The notes beneath the pieces were generated by a model. It did no database searches. It worked only from the letters and a program-made list of their open reading frames with translations, and had not been told where the DNA came from. Shown one piece after another: positions 1 through 44,528 of a stretch of DNA of 44,528 bases (position 1 is its first letter; each line of letters begins with the position of its first letter). The position numbers and the translations under genes are program-made. This DNA is from Methanobacteriota archaeon (lineage in GTDB: Archaea; Thermoplasmatota; Thermoplasmata; RBG-16-68-12), in contig VBMG01000039.1 in the NCBI GenBank assembly GCA_005878485.1, positions 1 through 44,528 of the forward strand. The letters run 5' to 3'.

Positions 1-289
1 TCGACGTGAGCGCGGCGACGAGCACCGCGACGAGGGCCAGTCCCCCCAGCGGAATCAACGCGATCCATCGCGGTTCGTACCGCAGGTGCATGTAGTAGGC
101 GACAACAAGGCTCGCCTTGATCGCCGCAAGGACGACCAGGATGGTAATCGTCTCGAGCCGCGGCAGGCGGAGGCTGTAGACATTCAGCTCGATGAATGTC
201 ACGACGGCGAGGATCACGAACACGACAACGTAAGGGCGCTTCCGAACCTCCTCGACCGGAGCCGTTCCCGTTGCCGTCGCGGTTGCCAT
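1..289 (-). CDS. Cytochrome c oxidase subunit IV-like membrane protein (partial, runs off the window edge)
   Basis: Reverse-strand reading from ATG at 289: MATATATGTAPVEEVRKRPYVVVFVILAVVTFIELNVYSLRLPRLETITILVVLAAIKASLVVAYYMHLRYEPRW...; hydrophobic segments and the KASLVVAYYMHL motif typical of prokaryotic COX subunit IV; directly downstream of coxC. Confidence 0.8.
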   Translation of the reverse strand, partial: MATATATGTAPVEEVRKRPYVVVFVILAVVTFIELNVYSLRLPRLETITILVVLAAIKASLVVAYYMHLRYEPRWIALIPLGGLALVAVLVAALTS

Positions 290-297
290 CCGTCACC

Positions 298-1137
298 TCA
301 GATCAGGTACACGATCGTGAATAGGAAAATCCAGACCACATCCACGAAGTGCTAGTACAGCCCGACGAGTTCCACGGCTTCGTGATTCTCTTTCGTGAAT
401 CCGCCTTTGAACGCCTTCCGGGTGACGTACGCCATGCCGATCACGCCGGCGGTCACGTGAGAGCCGTGGACGCCCGTCTGCGCGTAGAACGTCGGGCCAT
501 AAAGCGGATTGACGTTGAACGGTGCGCTCTTGAACGTGAGGTGCTCGCCGAAGTACAGATGTTGGTACTCGAATGCCTGGATGCTGAGGAACGTGATCCC
601 GAGTAACAGGGTCGCCGCGAGGAACAAGCGGAGGCGCTTCTGATTTCCACGCTCGATCGCCCCCAGCGCCTCGACCATCGTCAGGCTGCTGCAGATCAGA
701 ATGAATGTGTTTAGGCCGGTGAGGGGCACGTTAAGGATAGGAGGGGTTACACCCGGGATGACCCACTCCCCGCCGTATTCTGGCGTACCGAGGACGGTCG
801 TCCGCAACCGCAACGTCCAGGAGGTCCCAATCACCGCGGAAAACAACATGATCTCGGTTGCGAGGAAGAGCCACATCCCCAGCTTCCGGGCGCTGACCCG
901 CGGAAACTTCGACTCGATCGCGGAGATAGCGCCATAGAACGCGCTCGATGGCCGCTGCAGGTCTTGATGGATCCAGCCACCAAGCCCGCCGCCAAAGATC
1001 GCGAGGCCGACGAGGAGCATCGGGATGCTGACGGAGACAATCCCGACGTAGCCGACGCCCATCCCGATTGCGATGATCACGGGCCACGGGCTCCCGTGGT
1101 GCTCCTCTGCCTCGCCCGTGGGTTCCGGGTGCGCCAT
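298..1137 (-). CDS. coxC: Heme-copper oxidase subunit III; in-frame TAG at 352-354, with homology continuing to the TGA at 298-300
   Basis: ORF 352..1137 gives a subunit III protein (GMWLFLATEIMLFSAVIG; GVHGSHVTAGVIGMAYV; EAVELVGLY*). The next codons in frame read HFVDVVWIFLFTIVYLI*, the canonical C-terminus. Confidence 0.85.
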
Positions 1138-1327: not shown

Positions 1328-1548
1328 GCATCCGCCGTTCGATCCGAGGTGAATAAAGCCATCGTCGTTTGTGCTGATTTCAATTCTTAAGAGGTATAAC
1401 GCGCCGCGCGGCTCGCGATAATGACCGGCCTATCGAGGTTGTTCAGCGGGGCGAGGCGCGACGGTCCAATCTTCGCACGACGAAACTGCTTATACTTGCT
1501 TTCCGGATGGGGAGCCGCCCGGGATTCTCCATGCCGACCGTCCGGCGG

Positions 1549-2334
1549 ATGAAGGCGAAGCTCGCGCTCATGGGCGAGGGCGGAGTCGGGAAGACTTCGT
1601 TGATCCGACGGTTCGTCCTGAACGAGTATCAGGACACGTATCTCCACACGATCGGCACGAAGGTGAGCAAGATCGAACTCACGGTCCCGTACGGCGCGGA
1701 TGTCGAAGTCCAGCTCAGCATGTCGATTTTTGATATCATGGGCCAACGGGGATTTAGGGACCTCGTGAAAGAGACGTACTACCACGGTGCCCAGGCGTTG
1801 ATGGGCGTCTGCGACCTGACGCGCAAGGACAGCCTCCATTCCCTGAACGACTGGATTCCGTCAGCACTCGAGGTCGCGGGCGACGTGCCGGTGTTTCTCG
1901 TCGTGAACAAGAGGGATCTGCGAGAACGACAGGCCATTTCGGAGGACGATATCCGGACCCTCGCGGAGCCTTTCCGGGCGCCGTACATCTACACGTCGGC
2001 TCGGACGGGTGAGTTCGTTGAGGATGCGTTCAACGCCCTTGCGATTGAGGTTGTCGACCGTGCCTTCCAACTGGAACAAGCCCGCGCCGTCGAACGCGGA
2101 TTGCGAGAGAAAGTCCTCTCGCTCCTGGAGAAGCGGAGGTCTTTGGGCCTGACAAAGAACCAGTTCTTCGAGATTCTCCGCGGCGTGAACTTCGACGATC
2201 TCAAAGCGGAGCTCACACGACTCGAAGGGGAGGGGCTCGTGACCGTGATGTGGTCCGGGGCCTCGGACTTTACCGTTTTCATCACGCCGCAAGGGGCGGC
2301 CGCCGGGCGACCGGTAACGTGGGAAGAGGAGTAA
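1549..2334 (+). CDS. Ras/Rab-like small GTPase with C-terminal winged-helix-like domain
   Basis: G1 GEGGVGKTSL, G3 DIMGQ, G4 NKRD, G5 TSA; C-terminus RGLREKVLSLLEKRRSLGLTKNQFFEILRGVNFDDLKAELTRLEGEGLVTV resembles wHTH. TATA-like cttatactt near 1490; alternative ATG starts at 1507 and 1531. Confidence 0.85.
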   Translation: MKAKLALMGEGGVGKTSLIRRFVLNEYQDTYLHTIGTKVSKIELTVPYGADVEVQLSMSIFDIMGQRGFRDLVKETYYHGAQALMGVCDLTRKDSLHSLNDWIPSALEVAGDVPVFLVVNKRDLRERQAISEDDIRTLAEPFRAPYIYTSARTGEFVEDAFNALAIEVVDRAFQLEQARAVERGLREKVLSLLEKRRSLGLTKNQFFEILRGVNFDDLKAELTRLEGEGLVTVMWSGASDFTVFITPQGAAAGRPVTWEEE

Positions 2335-7901: not shown

Positions 7902-8738
7902 ATGAAATTGGTTGAATATCAGGACCTTTACCGTAAGCTCGCCACCCCGGAGGACATCGACTTCCTCGCGGAGAACGCCGGGTACGACAAGGAACTTCTC
8001 CTTGTGATCTATACGCAGCGCATCGTACGCGAGACGACGAAGAAGTTCTACCGTGTGAAGGCGCAGGCCCGTCGGCTGGCGTTCATGTGGCAGAACGGAT
8101 CGAGTCTCCTCGAGATTGCGCGCAAGTTCGAGTTCCCGCCGATCTTGACCGCCCTGATGGTCCTCGAGCAACGGAAAATTTCCCGAAAGCAGTTCTGGAA
8201 GATGATCAACGATCTCGCCAGCGTGAAGGACCGCCGTCTCCGTCGGGAGCTCGAGGACGTGAATCGCACGGACATCGTCTACTCCCCCGGGGGCAGCGCC
8301 CGTCAATACGCGCGCGGACGGTGGGGCGAGGCAAAGCTCCACACCTGGCTCGACGCCCGCGGACTCGTGTACGAGACGGAGAAGGATCTTCGCGCGAAGT
8401 ACGACAAGACCCCCGACATCTTGTTGCACATACCGCTCGAGATGAACGGTTCGAGGAAATACTGGATCGAGTCGAAAGCGACGTTCGGAGACCCCTACGA
8501 AATTCGGCGCCACCTTCGGAAGCAGCTCCAACCGTACAGCGACCTGTTTGGCGATGGGGCCGTCGTCTACTGGTTTGGCCATGTGGACGATCAACAGTAC
8601 GAACTGCCGGTGGGGGTTGACATCGTCAGCCCGCAGTTTTTCGAGACGCCACCGGTCCCGTTCCCGTATGTGCCGGTCGGCGAGACTCCGCTCGAGGAAG
8701 CGCCGCTCCAACCCGGCGCGGTCGGTCTCCGGGAGTAG
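7902..8738 (+). CDS. CDIN1/C15orf41-like (TPD motif) predicted nuclease
   Basis: RGRWGEAKLHTWLDARGLVYETEKDLRAKYDKTPDILLHIPLEMNGSRKYWIESKATFGDP; the TPD motif and D..ESKA arrangement of this restriction-endonuclease-fold family. Confidence 0.75.
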   Translation: MKLVEYQDLYRKLATPEDIDFLAENAGYDKELLLVIYTQRIVRETTKKFYRVKAQARRLAFMWQNGSSLLEIARKFEFPPILTALMVLEQRKISRKQFWKMINDLASVKDRRLRRELEDVNRTDIVYSPGGSARQYARGRWGEAKLHTWLDARGLVYETEKDLRAKYDKTPDILLHIPLEMNGSRKYWIESKATFGDPYEIRRHLRKQLQPYSDLFGDGAVVYWFGHVDDQQYELPVGVDIVSPQFFETPPVPFPYVPVGETPLEEAPLQPGAVGLRE

Positions 8739-9133: not shown

Positions 9134-9897
9134 TGATTGACGAGCGACGCATGCGAGGCCTGGAGGCCCAGGTCGACGCCCTCCGAACAAAGGAGAAAGA
9201 CTCGGAGACTCGCAAGACCTACGACGAAGTCTTCGACCACGCCGCCCTCCTGACGATTGCCCAGCTGATCACGGACGGGGTCCTCTCGACCCTCGACTAC
9301 CCAGTGAGCACGGGGAAGGAGGCGAACGTCTTCCACGCGACGGGTCCCGATCGGCGCGCGAAGGCGGTGAAGATCTACCGGATCGCGACCGCGACGTTCC
9401 GGAACATCGCCGTGTACATCGAGGGCGATCCGCGCTTCAAGAAAGTGAAGCGCGCGACGAGACCCACGCTCCTGGCATGGGCCCAGAAGGAATACAAGAA
9501 CCTCGTCCGGATGGGGGACGCCGGTGTGCGCGTGCCGAACCCGGAACGGGTGCTCGACAATGTGCTCGTGATGGAGTACATCGGGGACGAGACCCAGCCT
9601 GCGCCGTCCCTCCGCGAGGTCGCCTTAGAGGATCCGTACGCCGTCTTCAATGACGTCGTGGCGAACATGCGGGGAATCCGGGAGTCGGAACTCGTGCACG
9701 CGGACCTGAGTGAATACAACCTCCTGTGGTGGGCCGGACAAGTCGTCGTCATCGATGTTGGACAAGCGGTCCCCCTCGACCACCCGCGGGCGGCGGAGTG
9801 GTTCAAGCGGGACGTTGCGAACGTCGCCCGGTTCTTCAAGCGGCGGCGCGTCGACGTGACCCCGGCGACCCTCGAGCGAGCGATCCTGGGAGGATGA
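9134..9897 (+). CDS. rio1: Rio1-type serine protein kinase
   Basis: STGKEANVFHATG; AVKIYRIATATFRNIAVYIEGDPRF; LVHADLSEYNLLWWAGQVVVIDVGQAV. Confidence 0.95.
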
Positions 9898-26113: not shown

Positions 26114-29464
<3,351 letters not shown>

Positions 29465-43567: not shown

Positions 43568-44047
43568 ATGGCCGAGAGACTCAACGTCCTGGTAGACGGG
43601 GGTAAAGCGACACCCGGTCCACCGTTGGGCCCGGCCCTCGGCCCCCTTGGGGTGAACATCGTCGAGATCCTCAAGGCGATCAACGAGAAGACGAAATCGT
43701 TCGAAGGGATGAAAGTCCCTGTCACCCTGCTCGTCGACCCGAAGACGAAGGCCTTCACAATTGAAGTCGGGACCCCGCCGACGTCCGCTCTGATTACGAA
43801 GGAGCTCAAGATCGAGAAGGGATCGGGAGACCCGGGCAAGACGCGGGTCGGCAATCTCTCCCTCGTGCAGGCGATCAAGGTCGCGAACATGAAGGCGGAC
43901 GCGATGCAGGGGAAGTCCCTTAAAGCGCGCGTCCTCGAAGTCGTCGGCACGGCGGTCTCGATGGGCGTGACCGTCGAGGGGAAGCCTGCGAAAGAGCTGT
44001 CAAAGGAGATTCAGGCGGGCAAGTTCGACCGGCAACTCGCGGCCTGA
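43568..44047 (+). CDS. rpl11: Ribosomal protein uL11
   Basis: LNVLVDGGKATPGPPLGPALGPLGVNIVEILKAINEKTKSFEGMKVPVTL; L11 family throughout. Confidence 0.97.
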   Translation: MAERLNVLVDGGKATPGPPLGPALGPLGVNIVEILKAINEKTKSFEGMKVPVTLLVDPKTKAFTIEVGTPPTSALITKELKIEKGSGDPGKTRVGNLSLVQAIKVANMKADAMQGKSLKARVLEVVGTAVSMGVTVEGKPAKELSKEIQAGKFDRQLAA

Positions 44048-44088
44048 GTCGTGCACAGGCCGACCGAGCACGGGTTTCGGGTAACACG

Positions 44089-44528
44089 TCATTGGGCCTT
44101 CGGCAGGACCTTCCGCTCCGCTCGTGCTGGACGCGCGAGGTCCAAGAGCATCGCCTCGAGCTGGATCCGGACGAAATCCATGTCGCCGACCCAAAGTCCC
44201 TGGAGCTTGTCCGCCGCGAACTCACCGTCTCGATAGAACGAGTTCAAGATGAACACTTCCTGGTCGCTTGGAAAGACATAGGTGTGCGCGAGTCGCGTCG
44301 TCGAGAGAGGCCGCGCCGGGAAATGAAACTGCACCCGCGTGGTCCGGCCTAGGAGGCCGCTCAGCTCCGCCAAGTCCGACCGGTTCGATTCGTTCAGGAC
44401 GACACGAACGAGGCGGCGCGAACGCCCGAGCGCGTCGAACAGGAGGCGCAGGATCTCCGGCGCGACGGGGAACGGACTCACGCAGAGGATCTGGCCGCTG
44501 CTCGAAAGGATCACTTCGCGGAGCTTGC
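44089..44528 (-). CDS. Hypothetical protein, partial (N-terminus outside the window); possibly a transcription-regulator C-terminal domain
   Basis: Open frame to the window edge: KLREVILSSSGQILCVSPFPVAPEILRLLFDALGRSRRLVRVVLNESNRSDLAELSGLLGRTTRVQFHFPARPLSTTRLAHTYVFPSDQEVFILNSFYRDGEFAADKLQGLWVGDMDFVRIQLEAML. Confidence 0.6.
   Translation of the reverse strand, partial: KLREVILSSSGQILCVSPFPVAPEILRLLFDALGRSRRLVRVVLNESNRSDLAELSGLLGRTTRVQFHFPARPLSTTRLAHTYVFPSDQEVFILNSFYRDGEFAADKLQGLWVGDMDFVRIQLEAMLLDLARPARAERKVLPKAQ

Follow-up and report, generated by a model that had tools for sequence, protein, structure and literature searches.

The window analysed here (44,528 nucleotides) is the entire contig C54, one of 230 contigs in a draft archaeal genome assembled from a metagenome; the genome is 84.4% complete and 2.9% contaminated. 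The minus strand at one edge of this contig encodes coxC, the gene for heme-copper oxidase subunit III (positions 352–1137), which starts with an ATG at 1137 and runs through 261 open codons before it meets an in-frame TAG at 354–352 as codon 262. Beyond the TAG, the same frame occupies positions 351–298 on the minus strand, reads HFVDVVWIFLFTIVYLI and closes with a normal TGA (300–298) that is common to most relatives. These letters and coordinates, the terminal segment and the TGA included, are as the initial annotation had given them. Downstream of coxC lies the gene for oxidase subunit IV (COX4_pro, PF03626, 56 bits; positions 2–289, minus strand), which is cut by the contig edge and continues on another contig, C38. 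On the other side, coxC is adjoined in divergent orientation by a gene for a Ras-like small GTPase (PF00071, 111 bits; 1507–2334, plus strand). The window also encodes RIO-kinase, KRR1/PNO1-like KH and RRP4-type exosome genes, as well as an intein-bearing gyrB (26114–29464, minus strand), in which the intein matches fall at residues 430–508 (N-terminal) and 891–914 (C-terminal); the gyrB homologue of genome G017 (606 residues) contains no intein.

Membership of the interrupted gene in the COX3 family is well defined. The COX3 profile PF00510 scores 92.4 bits on the frame read through the TAG and 63.3 bits on the truncated part, both above the curated cut-off of 23.8 bits, and the pairing with a downstream subunit IV gene is likewise shared with known COX3–COX4_pro gene pairs. 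The frame across the TAG aligns over its full 279 residues with same-genus homologues, reaching 85% identity with the best of them, which shows that the interrupted frame is real. At the C-terminus, where GLYWHFVDVVWIFLF is conserved in relatives, the window's copy differs in having TAG in place of the Trp. Consequently, the complete last helix with its conserved Trp is absent from the coxC frame of the window. Elsewhere in the genome (C228:1275–3677, minus strand), an 800-residue open frame contains a second protein with a COX3 match, in which oxidase subunits I and III may be fused.

With 352 bases between it and the edge of C54, the TAG falls inside a contig tip of 652 bases (positions 1–652) that is duplicated in the same genome. 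The end of the 5,674-base contig C38 (C38:5023–5674) matches this tip without gaps at 634 of 652 positions, as two haplotypes would, and it has TGG at the codon where the window has TAG. A second version of the locus with the usual base, free of the TAG and encoding the complete last helix, is therefore present in the same assembly. Of the 18 differences between the two copies, 16 are synonymous and the remaining two are the TAG itself and a missense change (codon 41 of subunit IV, Arg in the window and Gly in C38); the differences that follow the TAG within the coxC frame are synonymous. This composition gives the window tip and C38 the appearance of two strain haplotypes. C38 runs on beyond the window's edge and the window runs on beyond the edge of C38, which suggests that the two are the overlapping ends of neighbouring contigs that derive from different haplotypes.

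The opposite tip of the window shows the same signature of strain mixture. Positions 43896–44528 are duplicated by C85:1–633 at 615 of 633 positions (18 differences), and from this overlap C54 and C85 are probably neighbours from different strain haplotypes as well. Elsewhere in the genome, C8:1–632 and C112:834–1464 share 632 bases at 97.5% identity, including a tRNA-Leu(CAA), and then diverge. This shared stretch is possibly a third case of strain overlap, and it may reflect an indel between strains, a duplication or a chimeric contig join. A search of the genome for a similar overlap at the left end of C38 found none. Strain variation is described as giving fragmentary co-assemblies (DESMAN, PMC5607848), and the present locus resembles strain-variant or erroneous bases at the contig ends of metagenome-assembled genomes in that the ends overlap at 97% identity with mostly synonymous differences, and in that C54 is broken in this way at both ends. 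The sole difference is that one change hits a Trp codon and makes a stop. With overlaps to other contigs at both window ends supporting strain variation, we conclude with high confidence that a lone TGG-to-TAG change, confined to one of the two haplotypes, accounts for the coxC TAG. Its source is a base or consensus error, or else a nonsense allele that arose recently and is private to one strain.

Comparison with relatives bears on whether the TAG could instead be fixed in the species, with a functional CoxC of 261 residues that can do without most of the last helix. Apart from the TAG, the contig is coherent and the upstream frame is intact and well conserved, as such a truncation would allow. 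However, the Trp of the GLYWHFVD motif is found in the protein alignment in all 18 complete related homologues as well as in the fragments from C38 and genome G016, so that the Trp assigned to this site by the initial annotation is indeed present in every relative that covers the codon. At the DNA level, each of the other 17 aligned sequences has TGG at the equivalent of codon 262. A scan of genome_contigs gave only distant homologues, none above 52% identity. Among the 61 genomes searched, no coxC homologue besides that of the window has an internal stop, and no naturally truncated coxC was found among the relatives; relatives with a functional CoxC ending at the same position, which the initial annotation had named as a contrary case, were looked for and none was found. 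Moreover, the Trp is kept by C38 of the very same genome. A truncation fixed in the species is thus very improbable.

An in-frame TAG followed by an open frame is also what recoding by pyrrolysine or an amber suppressor would produce, in which case a suppressor tRNA(CUA) would decode the codon, or pyrrolysine would be inserted at it, to give full-length CoxC. The frame past the TAG is intact to its normal TGA and the haplotype differences after the TAG are synonymous, as readthrough predicts, but a very recent change or an error would leave both features too. TAG is neither depleted nor absent as an ordinary stop in this window. Of about 24 gene ends placed there by conservation, a few of them possibly in spurious frames, 15 use TGA, 6 TAG and 3 TAA, and the conserved TAG ends include those at 8736, 14712 and gyrB (26116–26114), in agreement with the earlier remark that TAG terminates other genes here. 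We also surveyed the window for nonsense codons against the proteins of seven same-genus genomes, comparing about 11,279 codons. Nearly all of the many in-frame stops of the first survey belonged to shadow frames of high-GC genes and vanished when the best-scoring frame at each place was kept. One candidate, at 9857, falls before the KH-domain gene's true start (9899), and the remaining candidates were judged to be shadow-frame or intergenic alignments, given their low local identity, their one or two supporting relatives or their position between genes. With shadow frames removed, the coxC TAG appears, in our judgement, to be the only stop that interrupts a conserved gene in the window; no other conserved window gene has an internal TAG, and none of the relatives has a TAG at the coxC site, where all carry Trp.

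To use pyrrolysine, a cell is described as needing the genes that make it, an amber suppressor tRNA dedicated to it and the matching synthetase (PMC3941956). Transfer RNA genes were located with the Rfam tRNA model and read by ARAGORN, which gave 38 hits; overlapping loci account for two repeats among these. None of the resulting 36 distinct tRNA genes of this 84%-complete genome has a CUA anticodon. Four tRNA loci gave no gene or another gene under ARAGORN default settings; with introns allowed they came out as tRNAs for Lys, Gly, Met and Tyr, none with CUA. Intron-bearing tRNAs are present in the genome according to ARAGORN and, like the RIO-kinase, KRR1/PNO1-like KH and RRP4-type exosome genes of the window, are consistent with an archaeon. 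The draft lacks about ten tRNAs that a full set would include, tRNA-Trp among these, which fits its incompleteness; at this completeness a suppressor tRNA could have been missed, which leaves readthrough some room. The PylS profile, for which one control genome scored above the cut-off, gave no match above the cut-off in this genome or in 18 same-genus genomes. Matches of 18–24 bits in six same-genus genomes are far below the cut-off of 178 bits and probably represent other aminoacyl-tRNA synthetases. The locus thus differs from known recoding systems in that tRNA(CUA) and PylS were not found, the TAG is not conserved and TAG serves as an ordinary stop, and the readthrough or pyrrolysine option of the initial annotation is, in the face of this evidence, extremely improbable. 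A combined case, in which the coxC of one strain has a real amber allele and an amber-suppressing tRNA absent from the draft lets the full-length protein be made, would be exceedingly unlikely as well.

An isolated change in one of two haplotypes therefore remains the preferred explanation, and of the possibilities offered by the initial annotation, the nonsense mutation and the base-call error are the ones that stand with the TGG of C38 and the Trp of all relatives. The draft genome would accordingly be strain-mixed, with the TAG in one haplotype at a 652-base contig tip and the coxC of the species otherwise intact. The other 17 differences between the haplotypes (16 synonymous and one missense) show purifying selection, against which the nonsense change stands out. 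Low depth is frequent at contig tips. The surrounding haplotype is coherent, which favours real reads of a second strain over a poor consensus. On balance, we lean slightly towards an error rather than a real nonsense allele of one strain. If the allele were real, CoxC would be truncated to 261 of 279 residues, and the last 18 residues, amounting to most of the last transmembrane helix, would be lost; such a protein would probably be impaired. A literature search on the effect of subunit III loss gave nothing useful.

Most of what the coxC TAG asks is answered, without reads, by setting it against the remaining contigs of its own genome. The case serves mainly as a caution for metagenome-assembled genomes: when a stop appears in a conserved gene close to where a contig breaks off, the genome's remaining contigs are the first thing to compare it with. 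In the present case, the TAG in coxC is ordinary, and neither an error nor a private allele needs a new mechanism.
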